A DNA stretch of 64,000 nt from Laetiporus sulphureus 93-53 (Eukaryota; Basidiomycota; Agaricomycetes; Polyporales; Laetiporaceae): positions 68,355 to 132,354 of the forward strand of contig NW_024468542.1 in the NCBI RefSeq assembly GCF_001632365.1. Reading direction: 5' to 3'. The notes under the pieces were generated by a model. It was not told the origin of the DNA, did not search any database, and saw nothing but the letters and a program-made list of their open reading frames with translations. Positions 17,646 through 62,395 of the stretch are shown here, one piece after another. Each line of letters starts with the position of its first letter. The stretch's first letter is position 1. The position numbers and the translations under genes were made by a program.

Positions 17646-18648
17646 TTAATCCCAGCCCGTCGGAGCGGCAGCGTCAGCTCCCCAACCTCCAGTAGTAGCA
17701 GCGGGAGGGTCTGCTGCCCAGTCGGTGGAACCGGCACCTGTAGGCTCCGTAGACCAGTCGAGAGCACCTATAGCAAGTAATCAGCTCAAAACTGCAAACG
17801 AAATACAATTCATGACACGCACCGCCCTCGCCGGCCAATGCAGGGTTGATGCCGCCCACGGCGGGGGCAGATGTGGCTTCCCACTCGTTGACAGGCGCCT
17901 CGGCAACTGCGCCCGCAGCGGCCTCCGCCTTCGCCTGAGCCTCCTCCTGCTGCTGCTTCTCGACCTCCTCGGGATCGCGGTAGAAGAACATGTCCACCAT
18001 GACGTTCCAACCCTCGGGAGTGCGGGGGATCGTGCCGCGGAGGCGAAGGACTTCGCGCGCGAGGAGCCACCACATCAGACCGATCGAGTGACGCGACTTG
18101 TTGTTCGTTGGAATGACAACGTCGACGAACTTCAGCGGCGCATCGGTGTCGCAGAACGCGATGACGGGGATGTTGACGTATGATGCCTCGCGGATCGCCT
18201 GGTGGTCCACACGCGGGTCCGTAACGACAATCAGACGCGGCTCCTTGAATGAACGGGTGATATAATTGGTGAAAGACCCGGGCGTGAAACGGCCCGCGAT
18301 GGCTTGCGCGCCAGTATTTGCGGCGTACTTGAGTACAGCACGGTGCCCGTACGGGCGAGCAGAGATGATACAGACGTCGTTTGGATTCTCAATTGCTGCG
18401 ATGATACGAGCAGCGAAGACAAGCTTTTCCCAGGTCTTGCCGATGTTGAGTAGGTGGATTCCTGAGGAAACGTCGAATTCGGGGTGCGCACAAATCGTAC
18501 AACGTTACTGACCATCAGACCTCCGCTTCCAGACGTACGGCAACATCTGCTTGTCACAGTTTTTGCTACCAATGTGTGATTGCGCAGCCAGCAGGAGCTT
18601 TATGTCATCCTCGCTCGCGTTGAGCACAGATGGCAATTTTGACGACAT
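17646..18648 (-). CDS. RPS0: 40S ribosomal protein S0 (uS2, RPSA/p40)
   Basis: Starts [20 protein letters not shown] at 18648, then [11 protein letters not shown]. The second exon gives [74 protein letters not shown] and [18 protein letters not shown]. The last exon encodes the acidic, Trp-containing tail with [12 protein letters not shown] and ends PTGWD. These are near-invariant uS2 blocks. The protein is part of the small-subunit head and is needed for late 40S maturation. Two introns are present: one after about residue 45 and one before the tail. The length (about 290 residues) is usual. Confidence 0.95.
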
Positions 18649-19102: not shown

Positions 19103-20417
19103 CTAAGCCTCGTCAATACCCAGGTGCTCTTTTCTCGCCTCTCGTGCCAGTGCCGCGATCTCTGCAGGGCCTGTCTTGCAACACCCTCCTACAATTACTC
19201 CGTGCCAGACTTCTTGTTTCAAGATTGGCTGGGCCATCTCGCACAGCCTGCGTGCCCAACCCTCACCCACCGCTGGTGGCTCCCCTGTTGACCACGTCTG
19301 CGTCGCCGGATCGTACGCGTCGCCTCTATTTGGGTACACAACCAGCCACGGCTTCTGCTTGCCATTGAGTATATGGCCAACCGCACTCGTCATCTCCTGC
19401 AGTAGTCCGCCGAGGTACTTCGGTTCTGTGCAGTTAATGCCTAAACCCCATGGATGTGGTGTTTGAATGCGCCCTTTCTGTCCCAATGCGGCTTCCGCGA
19501 CGTCGCATGCCCTGAGTCTCTCTCCACCTTGTGTCCGCTCTTCGGGGAAGCGACCGCCGGGATATACGGTGCCGATCCACCACGGTTTCATTTCTGCTAC
19601 ACCTGTTTCGTTCTGTAGCATCCCTACGGCCCTGCGAATCGCTTTGACCTCCCTCGTGAGTGGCACTGTCTCGAATGCGATGAAGTCGATCAGGTCCCAC
19701 ACATCCCTGTCCTCCGTAAACACGCGCAGCCTCTCCAGGTGGAACGCCGTCAACGCATCTATAGCTTCTTCCTCGAGTCGCCGTCCCTCCTGGGTGTCCT
19801 GGAAGGCATTGCAATTCTTTCCGTCCTCGGAGTATCCTCGCGGACCATACGGAGGAGGGTAGAAGCCGTCGAATTCTTGCGCGGGAGAGAGCGTTGCTCC
19901 GAAAGGGCCTAACGATAGTGCGATGTTGATCCTTCTAGCAGTCGCCCACGCTCCGCTGTCCGCTTGTTCGTTCACGAAGCGTCTTCGGGCTTCCGCCGCC
20001 AGCTTGATAGCCTTGCACATTATCCGTTTAGCGTCGTCCTTCCCGTAGCCGCATCGTTCGAATGTGCTGAATGCACATTGGTATCTACATCTCCTTATGA
20101 GTAACTGGTCTGTGGCAAGGAGGGTTGCGTACGTTGAGGTGAGAATGACATCTGCGCCGGCCCGCAAGAACGCAAGATGTGTCTCGATAATCAGTGCCGG
20201 GTTGTCCTCGATAGGCTTCGCTGACCACAGGGGTGTGGATATGTTCTGGTGGAACATATCCTCCAGTGTCGTTCCCTACCGCCATGGACATCACGAGCAA
20301 TAAGCAATTTAGGCACGAGCATGTATTCCGGAGAAAGATGGTACGCACGAAACCACCGTCAAGCACGAGAACTTGCAAAACATGGGCATCTTTCCCAATG
20401 GACTCCGAAGTCTCCAT
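19103..20417 (-). CDS. Homocysteine S-methyltransferase
   Basis: Exon 1 (start 20417) ends VLQVLVLDGGF. A GTGCGT...GTAG intron joins it to GTTLEDMFHQNIS, giving the family's DGGFGTTLE motif. A second, 48-nt intron (GTACGC...GTAG, near 20077-20125) lies in frame inside what looks like open frame. Removing it restores ILTSTYQCAFSTFE. Zinc ligands are visible in WGLGINCTEPKYLGG and VIVGGCCKTGP. FIAFETVPLTREVKAIRRA is also characteristic. The enzyme moves a methyl group from S-methylmethionine or S-adenosylmethionine to homocysteine to make methionine (yeast Mht1/Sam4). An insert of about 30 residues with PYGPRGYSEDGKNCNAFQ is longer than in yeast. Confidence 0.88.
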
Positions 20418-48495: not shown

Positions 48496-49209
48496 CTATG
48501 TAACATGCACTTCTGACAAACCGTGCTCATTGCGAAATTCCTCCCACTCAAGCCAGTTCTGCTCCACCGCCCGATAGACCGGTTTCCAACCCAGGCATGT
48601 ATGGAACCCGCCCGTCCTTTCAGTTGTCCAATTCCGCGCTACGAAGTCCCCCCGCTCGAGAGTCACATCCGCCGAGCACAGCGTCCATTGCCTCAGGTAG
48701 TTGAAGCAGTGATGAATGTGCCCCTGATGTACAGGAGGCAAGCTGTTCCAACCGTCCTCGAGTGCAGAGCGTATGCTGCGCAGACAATGGAGCTGGTGGC
48801 ACATGGGTACTGCGAACATGCGCTTTTCTGGCCCGAGCCGGACGTGATTGTCGCCTACGAGTGGCGCCGTCCATAGCCACTCCTCGTACGCCTCTGGGGC
48901 CGTCAAGGAATAGTGCACGCTGTCCTCAACGAGGAGTTTGGTTGGTCCTGCGTCGACCGGGAACAACTCTGGATAGTCACTGCCGATCCATGCTTCAAGG
49001 CTGTTAGTTGTATCGAAGGCTCACTACAAACGGTACTCACAGTGAGCCTCCATCGGCTCTGCATGCGTCCATCTCGGTGTCCTACGCAGACGCTTGGCGG
49101 CCCTCATCGTGTCCACAACATCCTTCAACGTGCTGTTGCAGATGGCAGACGCGACAATCAGGAGGCAGAGTACGCAAGACAAAGTCCACGGGCTTGTCTG
49201 ACCCGACAT
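48496..49209 (-). CDS. UstYa-type (DUF3328) oxidase-like protein A
   Basis: Two exons, 49041-49209 and 48496-48992, encode 221 residues. The N-terminus has one membrane segment (SCVLCLLIVASAI). Then come WIGSDYPELFP, typical of the family start, and the two diagnostic motifs: MCHQLHCLRSI (HxxHC) and IHHCFNYLRQWTLC (second His-Cys motif), followed by DVTLE. UstYa proteins in ascomycete dikaritin clusters oxidatively crosslink or cyclise RiPP core peptides; the paired HxxHC motifs are thought to bind metal. Both motifs are intact here. It lies about 4.4 kb from the precursor gene and is divergent from the GNAT gene. Function on the local precursor is inferred from linkage. Confidence 0.88.
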
Positions 49210-49482
49210 GATGGGGGAAGAAAGAAAGATGCGCAAGTCGGCGGGTTCCAAGAAGGTCAGTAGTCATGTCATATAAAATGGATGTGGTTATTCCTATCAG
49301 AGCGCCCTTCTTTGATGGAGCGGCTCTGCAGAACACGATGCGCCACATGGATTGCAGACTTCTGATCTTGATGCCGCGTGCACAGCTTGTCCCGGCAGCG
49401 AAGGCCGCCTTACTAATGAGCACATATAACGGATGCGTATTATTTGGCTCATCGCCTCACTCGATCCTAGTCAAACGGTACC

Positions 49483-50534
49483 ATGTCATCGCTGACAATT
49501 ACGCGCGTCGAACAACCCTCGCGTGAGCTCTGCTCTTCGTTCTGGCGATGCAGGCCAGACTGACTGTCCTCAGCAAAACTCATCGATGACTCCGTTAATC
49601 TATTCGTCGCCCTCATGAAGTCTGGTAAGGCAAGTATTCGTCTGAATGACAACGTGACTGAGGTCTGCCAGATCCCGCAATCGAGAGTCTCTGCGGGGGA
49701 GACGTCAGCCTGGCGGGTCCGATGGCCAGAGCGATGCTCAATGCAGGCGTACTCGCGGGGGAGTACTATGCAGCGCTCGACGAGAACGGCGAGCTGGCGG
49801 GTTTCACGCTCTGGATGCCACCCGGCCAGGAGATGTTCAGCACGTAAGTACTATTTTCCCGAGCGCTTCGGAAGCCAAACACCTTGTGCACAGGCAGGAA
49901 CAACGCGACCTTGGCTTGACGGACTTCATGGCAAGGCTGCCGCCGGAAGGCAAAGAGTATTACAAGGACACCGTGCGTACAGCCTTCTCAAATACGTCGG
50001 TTCTACATAGGGCTGCTGACCACGACCTCTGCAGTACCTGGCGGAGTTCCCAGGCTTTGTGAGCAGCTGTATCGGGCCAACGGTGAGCATGGCTGTGTCC
50101 TTCATGCTAGGGTCGACTGTTCGGCGCTCATCTCTTGATGTCCAGGGTAAGGTGGATTCGTGGTGGCTTCATATGGCGATGGTCCGGCAAGAAAGACAAC
50201 AGCAAGGGATCGCGCGGTCACTTATTGGGCTTGTTCGGGACAAGGTGCTGCATTGTTCCGATCTTCCTGCATTAGGGTCCGTCTGCTGACGAATAGCTAT
50301 TGTAACAGGCCAAGGAGAAAGGCGAGACGCTCGCGTGTAGCACAACGACACTGACGAATGCGAGTGCCGTAATTGTGGCCTTCTGGCATCCCACAATTTC
50401 TCATGCAATGCTGTTTTCAGGCATTGGTGTACAAGGCTCTCGGGTTCGATCTGAAGGGCGAGCGGAACATGCCTTCACCGTGGGGAGATTGGCCGCTCTA
50501 CGTCTTTGCCCTAGATACGAAGTCTTCTGATTGA
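49483..50534 (+). CDS. GNAT-family N-acetyltransferase
   Basis: Starts MSSLTITRVEQPS at 49483. Seven exons; one intron, 49625-49662, is only 38 nt. Joined segments: SVNLFVALMKSGLPD, GGDVSLAGPMARAMLNAGVL, EYYAALDENGELAGFTLWMP, WWLHMAMVRQERQQQGIARS (motif A: hydrophobic strand, then Q/R-x-x-G-x-A), and ALVYKALGFDLKGER (motif B region). It ends ALDTKSSD. This is the GNAT fold, which transfers acetyl from acetyl-CoA to an amine. Proteins with this MARAML and EYYAA start are common in agaricomycetes. It lies between the UstYa gene and the precursor, so acetylation of a peptide amine or detoxification is possible but unproven. Confidence 0.85.
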
Positions 50535-51082
50535 TGAAACTTTGCCCGAAGCTTCTGTATGTATATTATTCTGGCTCGGGGCGCCTGGAGCAGGTTTCGA
50601 GGCTCGAGAGATAGTCGGAGATAGCTCGAGTGAGCTGAGTATGAGGACTGGGCTGTGTTGTTAGACAGCGTGATTGGGAATGATGCGCGAGCTCGCCGAT
50701 GCAAGTAGTCTGCGTGATGGGCGCAGAAAGGGCAAATTCAAAGGTGGAAATGGAAACGCCACAAGGTCGCAGCGCCGGCGCTTGTAATCGACCTTGTCTG
50801 ATGGCGATGTCCACCATCCAGACAACTGCACAACTTGAAGGAAATCAAACTTCTGATTTTCGACTCTGAATATCAACGATTCCTTACGAATGGAGCATGG
50901 GCATCTTGCTTGAAATTCGATAGTTCATACTGCTATCAACATCATGGTTCTTCCTCGCATCGCTTTCCTGCCATCTTCCTCCGCACCGCCTCCGACCACA
51001 AGGTTCCTCAACCCTGTCGAGGACTTCTTCTTCTTCCAGGCTGTAGCTACCGTGTGCAAATTGCGCAGGGTTCAAGGACATT
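50535..51082. other. Intergenic stretch
   Basis: Between two plus-strand genes. Short minus frames (50498-50876) are open but not recognisable. Confidence 0.35.
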
Positions 51083-52088
51083 ATGCACGACCGTAGTGAG
51101 GAAGTGATCGCACTGTTGGACGCAGGGTCTCGAGAGGAGGACGACACGCCGGAGAAAGGTGGGCGACAGTTCGCTATGGATAGCTCGTCGTCGTCGAGGC
51201 TGACAACGTTCGCCAGCATCCCATGCACGGAGCCAGTCGCAAACCATTATCTCCTCTCTACTTCATGGGACAACTGGCATCCTCGTGCTCTTCATTGTTC
51301 TCGACCTGATCGCCTTTCTGTATGTGTTCCGCTCCGTCCTAGCTTTGTCCGGGCCTTCCACGGATGAATTCGAGTTTCGAAATCCGTACATTGGGTTGGA
51401 CGAGCTGTATGCATCGGGACGAGTGAATGCGTCGCGGTACGATCCCATCGTCAACGTGCCTCGCGTAGCGGCACAGGTCAGCAGCACCGAGCCTAACAAG
51501 GTCGGCGTCGAGGACGAGCATCGGTACCTGAGCAATTTCGGTACCATGACTCCATTGGATCGCCATCTCCAGGTCTCAAGCACGGTACGTACACCAGCTC
51601 GGTTCTGTCTGGCTAAGCTTACACGTCCTCGCCGTCCTCGCAGATACACACCATTCTTCAGTTCCGAACGATGGACTATGGCATGGAAAGCTGTGCGTTG
51701 GCTCTTCGTCTTCCCTCTCCAGAGGACAGCGAGTCCCTCCAGCTCGCGGAAGGCGCTAGAGACGTGCATCTCGACGTCTGCGCGCTCGATGTCTCACGTC
51801 AGCTCAAACCGCGCTCACTGTCATGGGCGACCCGCCCGCGCTGTCAAACACACGTGGGCACTCTCGTTGCCGGACCGGGCGAGGAGGTGCGGTTCCCCGA
51901 ATTTCCGTGCAGCTGGGGATCCCTCCACACGTATGAGATTTCCTGCAGCGCAGACTCTCCCGATTGTCTAGTGGACGTGTGGGCAACCAGGAACGGGACT
52001 TGGGGTGAGTTATTGATTCGTTTGTCTGCACTTAGGAGACCCTGATCTTGTTCCAGGAATATTCATGTATCAGTACCAGACCGTCTAA
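51083..52088 (+). CDS. Single-pass membrane protein of an agaricomycete family, function unknown
   Basis: Exon 1 starts MHDRSEEVIALLDAGSREED (51083). A 58-nt intron (GTGGGC...GCCAG, branch CTGAC) joins it to SQTIISSLLHGTTGILVLFI, a membrane segment. The lumenal part has NPYIGLDELYASG, NVPRVAAQVSS, RYLSNFGTMTPLDRHLQVSS, IHTILQFRTMDYGMESCAL and FPCSWGSLHTYEISC. The last exon reads IFMYQYQTV and stops at 52086-52088. I associate this pattern (YLSxFG, DRHL, QFRxMDYGMExC) with an uncharacterised family seen in basidiomycetes. The even-spaced Cys and topology fit a secretory-pathway protein. Its place between GNAT and precursor suggests a role in the peptide pathway; that is inference. Confidence 0.8.
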
Positions 52089-53585
52089 CAGACTCCGCTC
52101 ACCAGGAGAGAGTCTGCGTTGTCAACTAGAGTTCATTGATGTTACTATTCATTTTGCCAATTCCGTGATGACAAAGCAGCGAACTGGTCGGATTGTACAT
52201 TGTAAGAGATCAGCTGCGCTACGGAAGAATCACGACCTCGTAGTGCCAAAGTGAGTGATTTATATTGGACTAGTCAAGATCTCCCCTCGGAACTGAATTT
52301 CCTCTCAATCTATCAAGGAAGCAGTGTTCGCAGGAGGCCCCGGCGCAGTCTTGCGCGCTCAGGGCTCGATTTCGGAGTGCCCTCCGACAGCCTTCTTCCG
52401 GGCGGTCCATTGCTCTGCCCCATTCAGTCATTTGACTAATTCCCTAGTCAATCAAGACTCATTGGATCCATCTGGCGTGCTGACCTGACAAGTCATAATT
52501 CGAAATTAACGGAAGGTGCAACTGTCTGTTCCCAATGGTTACGCAAAGGATATCGCTACTTGCATAAAGCTTGCAGACATCGTGAGTACTCCGTTCATGC
52601 TCTTATAATTCGAACGTGATGCTGAATGATGTCGCAAGTGCACAATCACCCATGCTAATCATATCGTGTTGCCTCGATTCACCTGGTATCAGGTCTAGTG
52701 CAAAAAAAGTAGGTGACATATGGCTCGCATCCTATTGAGAGAATGGTGCCATCAGCTTCGAATTTTCGGGCCGCCTTCGAGACTGAATCAGTACCGAGCG
52801 CTGGGAAGACGGGTGATCGTCGGTTCGCATCAGTCAGTGGGATTTGATGTTCGTGTGTGTGTCATGCTCCACTTAGGTACTGTTCTGACAGCATAGCCAT
52901 AGGAGATGTGTTCGCACCGGTGTGTACATCGTTGGCTAGAACACAGCCTCTACTGAATTTGCATTTCTCTCGCGGTCCGGCGACTTTGGATGCGCCCTGG
53001 GTGTCGGTGAAGTTCTGAAACAAAGAAGAAATGAACGGAAGATCTTTCGATGGTGATTGTATTTTTGACCTTCCGCTTAGGTTGGTGATCAACGAATCAA
53101 GATGTGGATTTTCCTCCTCGCTTCGATGTTCTACTCCCGATGTCCCGTTTTCTGAATTCAGACAAACAAAGAGCGATGTATACCACACTCTCAGAGGCAC
53201 AGAACAGTGGTTTCTACCCATTACTATCAATGGGGTCACAGTACAAACATATTACGGAAATGATACATTCACAAGTGGGACCGGGGGTGACATCTTATCA
53301 AGACACAGGTACACGGCTAGAACCCAACAGTCAAACCGAAACATGCCCGCAAATACAATCCGAAGCGTCCGGACTTCTCTCAACGACAACTTTGAATTCG
53401 GGGGGTGCTCAACGGCAGTAGCAACACAAACATGATGATGATTCTGGAACCTCCACTAATGGGTTCCCTCTTCGGGCATATGCGCATGTAACGCGGACAT
53501 ACGCACGTCCGTCTGGGATAATGATGAGTGATATTCAATTTCTATTGCTCGTTCTCGACGAACCTATGATCAATGGGTCCAACAA
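52089..53585. other. 1.5-kb region without a confident gene
   Basis: Overlapping frames of 105-134 codons exist on both strands around 52862-53435, but none has known motifs. It may hold the 3' UTR of the precursor gene. No further core-peptide copies were found here. Confidence 0.35.
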
Positions 53586-54151
53586 CTAAGCAGGAGACAG
53601 GAATACTGCATCAGTAGGCGATACTGGATGTGCTGCGGGAGGATGATGAGCCGTACACCCCCTGATTTTAGAGGCGTGCACTTGCCTTCGTCACGCCGCT
53701 CGCGGGGACGCAGGAAGACAGCATCTACAGGCGACGTCTCTTCTGCGAGAAAAAATGAGCCAAATATTGATTACGACGGTATTTCGGACTTGCCTGCGGC
53801 ACGTCTCTCTGCGGGGCGTAAGAAGATGGCGTCCGTGGGCGATGCCCTTCTCTCGACTGAGAGGGATAAGGGGTTGAGGACCAGACTCTGACGACGATCT
53901 CGCAAAACCGACTCACCAGTGGCGGGTGCTAGGAATACTGCATCGATAGGCGATACTCCTCGAGCAACTATCACAAGGGACATGCCGGTGAGCAGCGTTG
54001 AATGATTACTGCCTTCTGACGTACCTTGTGCACGCCTGGCGGGACGAAGGAAAATTGCATCCGTAGGAGCGGCAGCTCGCTCCTCTACAGGAATTGCATA
54101 GACAGCAGAAAGAGCACAGGCGACAGCGAAGAGAGCGGTAAATACTTTCAT
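53586..54151 (-). CDS. Candidate RiPP precursor with five core repeats (dikaritin/KEP type)
   Basis: Five exons: 54025-54151, 53917-53967, 53794-53856, 53686-53742, 53586-53632, totalling 345 nt (114 residues). All four introns are phase 1 and 51-60 nt long. Introns 1 and 2 are GT-AG; introns 3 and 4 use a GCAAGT donor (GC-AG). Exon 1 encodes a signal peptide (MKVFTALFAVACALSAVYA) and the first core. Each exon carries one core: APTDAIFLRP, SPIDAVFLAP, SPTDAIFLRP, SPVDAVFLRP, SPTDAVFLSP. Arg-Arg pairs follow cores 1 and 3, precede core 3, and follow core 4, fitting Kex2 cleavage. A signal peptide, repeated cores, dibasic sites and linked UstYa genes are the signature of dikaritin precursors. 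No core has a Tyr; Phe is the only aromatic. The product is unknown. Confidence 0.88.
53590..54075 (-). repeat. Five imperfect core-peptide repeats, one per exon
   Basis: On the minus strand the recurring DNA segment is of the form TCGCCTACTGATGCAGTATT. Copies sit near 54045-54075, 53930-53955, 53815-53840, 53705-53730 and 53595-53620. The consensus peptide is [SA]P[TIV]DA[IV]FL[RAS]P; Pro2, Asp4, Ala5, Phe7, Leu8 and Pro10 are invariant. Confidence 0.9.
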
Positions 54152-54199
54152 TTTGACCGAAGGGGGGGGGACGTTGTGCTCACTCGTCCTACCGCTTAG

Positions 54200-54210
54200 G
54201 TCTATATACC
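54200..54210 (-). promoter_or_regulatory. TATA box of the precursor gene
   Basis: The minus strand reads GGTATATAGAC about 50-58 bp upstream of the ATG at 54151, the same arrangement as the GH7 gene. This suggests a strong, short-leader promoter. Confidence 0.6.
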
Positions 54211-55262
54211 CTCACGCAGTGGCTGAAACTCTTCGAAGCCTCTATGGATATACATATACAGTCATGCTGTTCTGTATTGCAGTGCAGCCGAACGCCCGCG
54301 CATCGTTGACTGAATCTTCGCCCGGTCCCGCACGGCAACTACTATCAGCGGCCAACTAGCGCACTCCGTTTCCTGATCATGATGGGTTCCGCGCGCGCGC
54401 GCGATTCTCGCAGAAGAAGCACATGCTGAATGGAAGTTGGCTGTTATCTGATGCATGATGCGTGAGTTCTGCTCTCTTCCGAAACGGGCAATTATCATCA
54501 GTGCATGTGGAACGTGCGTGTTCGTTTCACCGCTCCTTCACTTTCATGTCCTCGTCTGCCAATTACGCTGCCGTATCCGGATCCTTTATGAGCGTTGCGA
54601 CGTAGGCTTGGCGGACGCAGTGCCACAAGCCTTTGCCAGCATGCGCCACAATGGACGACACGATCGCGCCATCATTCTAGAGCAGCTCTATCTTCGGTGA
54701 GTTGTACCCGTCCATCAGAAGGTGTCCAATGTACAGCCCATACTTACGCTATAACTGATGTCATTTATGAATAGTCGTTGTACTAGGGCGCGCTTGTGCC
54801 GTATTGGAGAACTCTGCGTTTCCGGCACGTTAGCTCTCGGGACGCCGGGACTGCCATCAACGGCGGCTGTCGGTCGCTCCTCGTGGAATAGTTGACAGTA
54901 CACGGCACGTTTGATAGGATAGGATCTCTAGGTATGTGCGCGGCACTAGCATCTCGAGTGTTAGTCGTTTTGCCTTCACGGCGATGTACTTTGCAGGAAT
55001 AGATCAAACGTTAAATTGCCGATGATGTCCTTTCATCGAACGCTCTGCGCAGCCGAAGAAGTGAAACTTGGTGGAATGTCCGCTTACAGAATAGCGTAAT
55101 CCGGTTACTGGCGACTTGAGGCTCGTTTTGCAAGCCACTACGAGCGAACCTTGATCTTTACACTCGGGCGACCCTATTCAGCAGCAGCATCTTCGAGAAG
55201 GCAAGGCTACTATATTTCAATGGACAAGATGGTTTAATCACGGATGTATTATCTTGTGCACG
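54211..55262. other. Intergenic region between precursor and UstYa-type protein B
   Basis: About 1 kb. It includes an alternating (GC)n run at about 54391-54403. Short frames only. Confidence 0.35.
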
Positions 55263-55963
55263 TCAGAGCCCTCCGGACATGGATTCCTGCGCCTCTCGCC
55301 ACTGAGCGTATTCCAGCTGGTTCCTCTCAATCTCCTTGTACACCGCTCCCCAATCCCTGCATTCATATGTCCCATACAAGTCGATGGGCGCGGTATTCGA
55401 CGGCGCAAGGAATGGCTCTAGCTGTAGATCTCCACGACACAACACCATCTGCTTCACGTAGTTCAGGCAATGCCTCGCCAGCTCCGACCGGGCGCTCTCA
55501 TCGTCCTTGTCGCGGTCGAACAGGAGCTCTTCGCGGATGACGTTCAGGCAGCGCAGCTGGTGGAACATGGAGACGGTGAACGGCTGACGATGGGGCCCGA
55601 GGTGGAGGAGCCCGGACTCGCCGGGGACGATAGAGGACCACTCGGCGATGCCGTCGGGAGTGTCGAGTTGGAAATGCATCGAGTTGTCGGAAGCCATGAG
55701 GACGTTGGGGATTTCGATGGGCCAAGCTTCTGGATAGTCATCTCCGAGGTATGCTACGGCATTGGAGCTAATAGTGAGTTACGTGTCATTGCACGCATGT
55801 TGTCGCCTTAAAGGGCCTGCTTACTGTATTCTCTCGTGACCTCCCACATAAGTGTCTTGAGCCATATCGTCGCGCAAACCTTCACAATGAGGCTGAAGCC
55901 TACAAGCGCGAAGCTGAGAGTCGTCGGTGAGGCATGTAGGCGCTTTACGAAAGAGCTGTGCAT
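55263..55963 (-). CDS. UstYa-type (DUF3328) oxidase-like protein B
   Basis: Two exons, 55825-55963 and 55263-55753, encode 209 residues. The start is MHSSFVKRLHASP, followed by a membrane segment (LSFALVGFSLIVKVCATIWL). Exon 2 begins YLGDDYPEAWPIE, the family signature. The first motif reads MFHQLRCLNVI: the second His of HxxHC is Arg. The second motif reads RHCLNYVKQMVLC, followed by DLQLEP. The lost ligand may mean altered metal binding, or a partner role with protein A; in ascomycete clusters two UstYa homologues often act together. It lies about 1.1 kb upstream of the precursor on the same strand. Confidence 0.86.
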
Positions 55964-59637: not shown

Positions 59638-60836
59638 TCACAGGTAGCGGTCCGTCACCAACGCGTGCCGGCCCCGGATGTTCATGAACGAATACTAGAA
59701 GAACCGCTCCGTCAGCCACACACCAACTCACCGCTCGCCCACTCACCTCGCTCAGATCCGGCCTCACGCCCTTGATCAGGTTCACGTACACGAGATTCGG
59801 CTCGGCGAAGAATGGGCGCAGGCCCGCAGCCTCGAGGCTCTCCCACCACGAGTTGAACCGGGCGAACGTGTGGTACCCACTGTCCGGGCGCGCGTGGAGC
59901 TCGATCTGCAGCTGGCCGATGGGGAGGACGGGCTGCGGAGGTGGGGGAGGAGGGCCGTGTGGGTGCCGTGGAGGGGGAGGGAGAGCTGAGGCGTTGGCCC
60001 GGGTGACGTGGTCGATGAAAGTAGACAGCGCAGCAAATTCCGCGCCCTCGATGTCGATCTGCGGGAGTTGGATTAGCGATACACAGGCGAGCAGCACGCG
60101 ACACGCACCTTGAGCACGTCGATGAACTCGTGCCCGTTCATCTGCATGAGGCTCGCAAGCGACCACACCTGCGTGCCGTCCGCCCACACGCCGTCCTGCG
60201 GCCCCAGTGCCCACGGCGCAAAGTGCGCCCTCGCCCTCAGCTCCTCGTCCTGCTCGATCTCCGGCCCAAACGCGCGCACGCTAAAGTCGTATCCCCACAC
60301 CTGGCATCCGGGCACGGCGCGCAGGAGCGCAGCCTCGAAGGAAGACTCGTTGTTCACCCCGAAAGAGTAGACGACGCATGAGGGCTGCGCTGCGAGCCGG
60401 GCGAGCCCGCAGAGCCACTTGCCGCCGTCGCCGAGGGTGCCGACGCGGTCGACGCGGTGCGGGCACTGGAAGGCGGGGATGTAGAAGTCCCAGAGGGTGT
60501 AGAAATCGTCGCGTAGTGGGAACCTGGTAGTGTACGGGAACTTAGGGTCAGCGTTAATGCGGGCGCGTAAGAAGATAAGAAAGCGCACGCCTCTACGCGC
60601 TCGGGTGTGGGCCCCCACTTGCGCACCATCATCTGACGCTCACGCAGGACCTGTTCGTAGCGTGCCTCCTCCTCCATGACTGCCCAGCGTGTTGCATCGA
60701 CGCCCCTGCCTCTGCTGAAGGAGCCGCCGTGGCCATTTGGGGGGCCTGGCGGGAAGAAGCAAAAGACGAGGAGAACGCTGATGACTGTGAGGGCGGTGAG
60801 CAGCGGATGGCGGTAGAGGAAATGCTTTGGCGTCAT
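59638..60836 (-). CDS. METTL24-like membrane-anchored methyltransferase
   Basis: Starts MTPKHFLYRHPLLTALTVIS (60836). A single N-terminal membrane anchor (VISVLLVFCFF) and a Pro/Gly-rich stem follow. The conserved part reads FQCPHRVDRVGTLGDGGKWL, CGLARLAAQPSCVVYSFGVN, CQVWGYDFSV, VLK|IDIEGAEFAALSTF (SAM-fold beta4) and QLQIELHARPDSGYHTFARF. The pattern R-x-G-x-x-x-DGGKW-C is that of METTL24-like (FkbM-related) proteins. The last exon ends ALVTDRYL at 59638. A Golgi/ER type II topology is likely. It is about 3.7 kb from UstYa-type protein B. A peptide methyltransferase role is speculative; the family is also widespread outside such clusters. Confidence 0.8.
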
Positions 60837-61384: not shown

Positions 61385-61845
61385 TCGCCTCTTCGCTGCT
61401 CAACGCTTGCTAGCCGACTGCTAGAGCGACTACCCAGAATCGCTGCTCGTAGCAAGTTGTCCTGTCGAGACGGCACCGTTCAATCTGTAGACGCCAGCAA
61501 CCAGATCTTTGCTTTCTTAAAGTTCCTGCAAGCCGGAGAATGCATATACGTTTTCCTAATCTTGCCATGCTCGGAGAATGTGAAGGCGATGATTTGTGCT
61601 TGTGGCCACTCTACCAGCCTCTCTTCCAGGCTTTATGATGAACTTGTCTTTCATCACCCACCCAGAGCTTTCGCCTCGAAGAGACTCAAAAAAGCGTGAA
61701 ACGTCGCCCTCCTCAGCCTCTTTATTATCGCCATCCGAGAGGCAGCGGATCGTCGAAATAAGTTTTCGCTCCTGAGTAACAAGGCGAATTGCCCTCTCAA
61801 TCGCAGGCGAAAAGGATAGCAACATAAGACACATCAAGATAGGTT
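61385..61845. repeat. Direct repeat Y, copy 1
   Basis: Matches 62040-62395: both begin TGCTCAACGCTTGCTAGCCG and end with GCGAATTGCCCTCTCAATCG and CATAAGACACATC. Copy 1 is about 100 bp longer. Confidence 0.85.
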
Positions 61846-62030
61846 CGAAAGAGTAGACGACACACGAGGGCTGCGCGGCGAGCCGGGCGAGTCCGCAGAC
61901 CCACTTGCCGCCGTCGGCGAGGGTGCCGACGCGCTCGACGCGGTGCGGGCACTGGAAGGCCGGGATGTAGAAGCCCCAGAGGATGTAGAGGACGCTGCGC
62001 GACGGAAACCTGGCAGTGGATGGCATACTT
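61845..62030 (-). pseudogene. Methyltransferase fragment
   Basis: Encodes WGFYIPAFQCPHRVERVGTL then ADGGKWVCGLARLAAQPSC, matching about 60 residues of the gene at 59638-60836. Coding similarity ends abruptly on both sides at the Y repeats, so it is a transferred gene piece, not a gene. Confidence 0.85.
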
Positions 62031-62039
62031 CTACACTGC

Positions 62040-62395
62040 TCAACGCTTGCTAGCCGACTGCTATAACGATTACCCAGAACCGTTGCTCGCAGCAACTTCT
62101 CCCTTCGGGATGGCACCGTCCAACATGTAGACACCGGCAATCAGGCTTTTACTCCCTCAAAGTCCCTGCAGACCAGAGAGTGCACATCCGTCTTCCTAAT
62201 GTTCAGAGACTCTGGAGAGCGTGAAGCGTCTTGCCCTTCTCAACCAGCAGATCATCGACCGCGCGGCTGGGTACCCGTGCAAGACAATTTCTGCAACTCA
62301 GCTTGCAAAGTATCTATATCTCCCTGTTGGCGAATTGCCCTCTCAATCGCAGGTGAAAAGAGTAGCTACATAAGACACATCGAGATAGTTTCAAA
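62040..62395. repeat. Direct repeat Y, copy 2
   Basis: Second copy of the Y repeat. With copy 1 it brackets the methyltransferase fragment exactly, which suggests that the two repeats and the fragment moved or were rearranged together. Confidence 0.85.

Follow-up and report, generated by a model that had tools for sequence, protein, structure and literature searches.

Precursor proteins with repeated peptide cores have been found by surveys in most fungi (PMC7329392). In the available part of that survey, which mined annotated proteins, DUF3328 genes lie near 1647 of 5372 repeat precursors from Ascomycota, and for Basidiomycota the 2020 count gives such a gene, at a distance of at most 15 genes, beside 103 of 1680; the shares are printed as 30.1% and 6.1%. 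Its author considered it possible that cyclisation is almost absent from Basidiomycota. Tyrosine was present in 65.6% of the repeats near cyclisation factors, and thus not in all of them. In the dikaritins (ustiloxin, phomopsin, asperipin-2a and victorin), a multicore secreted precursor with Kex2 sites is accompanied by UstYa genes, according to the excerpts available (PMC9233826, PMC6514808). An older definition, as given in the portion of PMC12048977 at hand, also placed a tyrosinase, methyltransferase, peptidase or transporter in the cluster, though later clusters are without some of these. Closer in taxonomy are the peptides from Kex2-processed repeat proteins (KEPs) of agaricomycetes, which share the fungal class and the precursor logic of the locus described here, and whose detected forms are linear or minimally modified; the terms “UstY” and “DUF3328” occur 0 times in the available text of that study (PMC9769878).

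The locus lies in Laetiporus sulphureus 93-53, an agaricomycete polypore. The window, meaning the whole 64,000-nucleotide stretch analysed, is positions 68355-132354 of contig 33 (C33; C numbers denote contigs) in a genome of 38.6 Mb and 124 contigs. Its features are as follows.

17677-18504, minus strand: match to ribosomal protein S2 / 40S SA, an ordinary gene
19106-20275, minus strand: match to homocysteine S-methyltransferase, an ordinary gene
48496..49209, minus strand: UstYa-1, 221 residues; PF11807, E 8.3e-14; two exons, 49209-49041 and 48992-48496
About 49722-50531, plus strand: GNAT acetyltransferase gene with introns; PF00583, E 1.4e-5
51204..51968, plus strand: uncharacterised protein containing a hydrophobic stretch, without a hit in Pfam or NCBIfam
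53586..54151, minus strand: candidate precursor gene, signal peptide and five cores, 114 residues; spliced model of five exons, 54151-54025, 53967-53917, 53856-53794, 53742-53686 and 53632-53586
55263..55963, minus strand: UstYa-2, 209 residues; PF11807, E 2.4e-16; two exons, 55963-55825 and 55753-55263
60076-60639 and 61559-62140, minus strand: two matches to Methyltransf_22 (PF13383), separated by about 1 kb

With the Basidiomycota KEPs linked to DUF3328 (PMC7329392, as excerpted), the locus shares the phylum, the signal peptide, the repeats parted by Kex2 sites and the close DUF3328 gene. It differs from them in that the precursor matched no protein searched and carries one core per exon. 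The likeness to the dikaritins extends to the multicore secreted precursor, the Kex2 sites and the UstYa genes. The differences, judged against the parts of PMC9233826 and PMC6514808 available, are a basidiomycete host, a tyrosine-free core unlike YAIG or FYYTGY, the incomplete HXXHC motifs of UstYa-2, and the lack of a tyrosinase, peptidase or transporter among the ORFs scanned.

The preliminary description had placed a secreted precursor with five cores and Arg-Arg sites at this position, and the spliced model bears it out. Each of the five exons carries one core. The four introns, of 57, 60, 51 and 53 nt, all have splice signals and are all in phase 1, so that duplication of an exon keeps the frame. 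The donors are GT in introns 1 and 2 and GC (GCAAGT) in introns 3 and 4. Each of the first two introns has a length divisible by three and holds no in-frame stop, so that reading through both gives an ORF of 126 residues with three cores, which ends at a stop in intron 3. A TATATA sequence lies 52-57 nt upstream of the ATG. The predicted signal peptide, an ER signal of the kind expected of a KEP, is MKVFTALFAVACALSAVYA-IP by sequence and a simple hydrophobicity rule. The cores follow the pattern xSP[TIV]DA[IV]FL[RAS]P and read AAPTDAIFLRPA, VSPIDAVFLAPA, ASPTDAIFLRPA, TSPVDAVFLRPR and VSPTDAVFLSPA; six of the 12 positions (P, D, A, F, L, P) are invariant, phenylalanine occurs in all five copies and tyrosine in none. 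The repeats start 113, 108, 111 and 117 nt apart on the minus strand. In the spliced model one Arg-Arg site falls in each of the four gaps between successive cores, the Kex2-type dibasic spacing that marks a KEP, and there is no KR or KK past the signal peptide.

That the repeat is not a chance product is argued by a scan for coding repeats, which found five copies at the precursor but never more than two in a shuffle; of 300 dinucleotide shuffles, none held three or more. A sensitive scan covered 234 kb, made up of the window itself, its edges (20 kb), the surroundings of other UstYa genes (130 kb) and a 20-kb control; it placed only this gene and one on C30 above threshold, each also on the antisense strand. 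Over the ten pairs of core repeats, differences at the three codon positions number 33, 22 and 69, of 120 each. Changes are mainly synonymous (pS 0.66, pN 0.21); since one antisense frame also has a low pN (pS 0.56, pN 0.24), the test does not single out the coding frame; the remaining four frames contain stops. The 36-nt cores align with scores of 8 to 22 (shuffles, -4.5 to -1.9) and the longer introns with scores of -2.5 to 9 (shuffles, -6.9 to -4.7). Intron pairs 2-3 and 3-4 are still clearly alike, to which splice signals may contribute. The core copies look old, and the peptide looks to be under selection.

The core was said to be unlike known ones. A protein database search with the precursor (342 candidates) found no relative at E <= 10, nor did an artificial doubled precursor used as query find one at that threshold in a capped set of 7992 candidates scored. 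The precursor is unmatched there although the neighbouring UstYa-2 is annotated. The DNA pattern of the core has seven matches genome-wide, five in the precursor and one each on C121 and C123; a reversed control pattern has one. The C121 and C123 matches share the same 20 bases and were set aside, the C121 stretch having been read and found to hold nothing resembling the precursor.

UstYa genes lie on both sides of the precursor, as earlier described, and so provide the nearby DUF3328 gene that is characteristic of dikaritins. UstYa-2 is the nearer, 1.1 kb off on the same strand, and its two-exon model is identical to the public L. sulphureus 93-53 protein LAESUDRAFT_728090 (100% identity, 100% coverage). 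Both are of UstYa type, as described, but only one of them is canonical. Dikaritin DUF3328 proteins are expected to contain two HXXHC motifs (PMC12048977, available part). UstYa-1 is canonical, with both complete (HQLHC and HIHHC), but UstYa-2 has HQLRC and LARHC, each one histidine short. We use “R-type” as a working label for a UstYa protein with one histidine missing per HXXHC motif. None of 120 aligned sequences, drawn from the 120 of 131 database matches listed and including UstYa-2 itself, has histidine at either lost position, though the search seeds on shared words and may favour like motifs. The named matches span many Agaricomycete genera, with close ones in Rhodonia, Fomitopsis, Daedalea and Serpula, and by its sequence UstYa-2 is a member of a wide Agaricomycete subfamily with this motif form. 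No relatives were found in viral or prokaryote contigs, and a sequence search of the PDB gave no match below E 0.5. The predicted structure of UstYa-2, from 19 sequences, is confident in the membrane helix only (mean pLDDT 56, pTM 0.32).

A search of the genome returned 22 UstYa exon matches, which were grouped by hand into about 18 genes at 10 places in the 38.6 Mb. Four R-type genes were found: the one on C33 and those at C55:66.1 kb, C31:117.0 kb and C13:638.6 kb. Each lies within 7 kb of a UstYa gene with both HXXHC motifs complete. At the other six of the ten places there are UstYa matches and no R-type gene was found. In a tree of 14 of the roughly 18 genes (C30:202k and three on C93 were left out) and seven database sequences, eleven R-type rows split from the rest with support of 100/98. 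No single supported group unites the complete partners, and the branch of C13_638k is long. We infer that an R-type and a complete protein work as a pair, by analogy with ustiloxin, which requires both UstYa and UstYb (PMC6514808, in the text available). Joint duplication of an old UstYa pair would give the same picture. The occurrence of His-poor and complete genes together at four loci offers a handle on why such oxidases often come in twos. At C55:65.6/66.1 kb and C31:117.0/117.5 kb the complete and His-poor genes are convergent, their matches about 0.3 kb apart. The UstYa gene at C5:981 kb has lost a different part of the motif (FRQLDC). Several UstYa-like genes lie at C93:47-59 kb, where in-frame stops in some matches may represent introns or decay.

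The same fungus pairs a precursor with UstYa elsewhere. On C30, at about 204.9-205.5 kb on the plus strand, is a second secreted repeat precursor with ten tyrosine-ending cores of the form [ED/G]xL[VIT]DDTP[EDS][IVF]Y and with KR or RR between them. UstYa exons at C30:202431-203128 lie about 2 kb away, an arrangement usual for dikaritins. The repeat scan found no repeat family at the paired UstYa loci on C55, C13 and C31. A search that gave 12 candidate starts in the 234 kb, three of which correspond to the C33, C30 and C55 genes, produced a candidate secreted precursor of 50 residues with a single core at C55:67432-67225 (minus strand). Its gene has a single phase-1 intron, and the protein contains one KR and ends in GEYKGPTLALCF. 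The R-type UstYa match is 0.9 kb away; we regard this candidate as a lead only. A secreted ORF of 56 residues without dibasic sites occurs at C13:639978 on the plus strand; the R-type match at C13:638.6 kb is about 1.2 kb away.

The sequence itself reads as a signal peptide, five conserved cores with RR between neighbours, and a UstYa gene on each side. We consider it probable that the locus encodes a Kex2-processed repeat protein together with its own UstYa pair, that is, a dikaritin-type RiPP with a tyrosine-free core. The five exons would be spliced and the precursor protein would enter the ER. Two membrane-anchored UstYa proteins would oxidise the cores; the presumed catalyst is UstYa-1, which has both HXXHC motifs, and the His-poor UstYa-2 would be its partner. 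Kex2 would cut at RR and Kex1 would remove the arginines, to give five secreted peptides of 13-21 residues, with further trimming possible. For the linear, arginine-free peptides the calculated [M+H]+ values are 2037.113, 2111.149, 1387.722, 1886.961 and 1752.844, and oxidation would lower them by 2.016 or 4.031. Because the core has no tyrosine, the modified residues would be phenylalanine or aliphatic side chains. The gene may have grown by duplication of its symmetric phase-1 exons. We count for this reading the architecture, the shuffles, the codon pattern, the UstYa genes on both sides and the pairing on C30. Against it stand the GC donors at two of the four introns, the tyrosine-free core, the loss of half the motif histidines in UstYa-2, the pS/pN values of the antisense frame, the missing precursor homologue, the lack of a tyrosinase, peptidase or transporter among the proteins scanned, and the two of four UstYa pairs (C31 and C13) that have no repeat precursor nearby. 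In victorin, phenylalanine is cross-linked and is used rather than tyrosine (PMC9233826, as excerpted); a tyrosine-free core therefore does not exclude the chemistry.

The main rival is that the precursor is indeed a Kex2-processed repeat protein but releases peptides that remain linear and act in signalling or defence, while the UstYa proteins act on another substrate or are chance neighbours. It would fit the absence of tyrosine from the cores and the UstYa pairs on C31 and C13 that stand without a repeat precursor. It also agrees with the survey, in which 1577 of 1680 Basidiomycota repeat precursors lack a DUF3328 gene at a distance of up to 15 genes (PMC7329392, available part), and with the peptides detected in four agaricomycetes, which are linear or minimally modified (PMC9769878, available part). 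Yet UstYa genes occur at only some 10 places in 38.6 Mb and both precursors in the 234 kb adjoin one, an argument that is weak because most of the 234 kb was picked from the surroundings of UstYa genes and the outside control amounts to just 20 kb. Overall we judge this rival rather unlikely. It is improbable that the gene is real but its model differs, with introns 1, 2 or more partly retained to give the three-core read-through or alternative forms: the two stop-free introns and the 126-residue ORF would allow it, but splice signals occur at all four introns, and cores 4 and 5 are conserved as much as the others. A decayed or untranscribed repeat seems very improbable. Although the annotated proteins hold no match to the precursor, the frame is maintained across four introns and is joined by a signal peptide, a codon-position pattern and TATATA before the ATG.

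Dikaritins were described as known mainly from ascomycetes, which is correct for the characterised ones; the 103 Basidiomycota precursors already linked to DUF3328 in 2020 lie outside that statement, and since they were counted then, the Laetiporus locus is not the first of its kind (PMC7329392, as excerpted). The suggestion of a new class in an agaricomycete is not supported. What is new is the exon-per-core layout, the tyrosine-free core and the R-type UstYa partner, none of which, nor the R-type group, was found described in the literature searched, from which subscription papers were largely absent. For UstYa-type peptide chemistry on a tyrosine-free core, the locus is a concrete candidate from a basidiomycete. 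The antiSMASH rule (PMC12048977, available part) would probably miss it because no peptidase is seen beside the precursor.

A broader and more doubtful proposal is that Agaricomycetes have an ancient UstYa system of two components, an oxidase with both HXXHC motifs and an R-type partner, that acts on short secreted peptides from intron-split precursors with either a core in each exon or just one core, and that the rarity of DUF3328-linked precursors in Basidiomycota is largely an annotation artefact. If so, gene callers and repeat searches would miss such precursors because they are split by introns. Were they common, part of the gap between ascomycetes and basidiomycetes would be an annotation effect.

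Among the 22 window proteins scanned with Pfam there is no tyrosinase, peptidase or transporter, and the only methyltransferase matches are those to Methyltransf_22. A GNAT and a membrane protein had been included in the proposed cluster. Both are present, but their membership is doubtful because relatives occur elsewhere and none at a UstYa locus: those of the GNAT at C13:269 kb, C42 and C10, and a single distant one of the membrane protein at C13:256 kb. Both are probably bystanders. The closeness of their relatives on C13 hints that they are old neighbours unconnected with the peptide.
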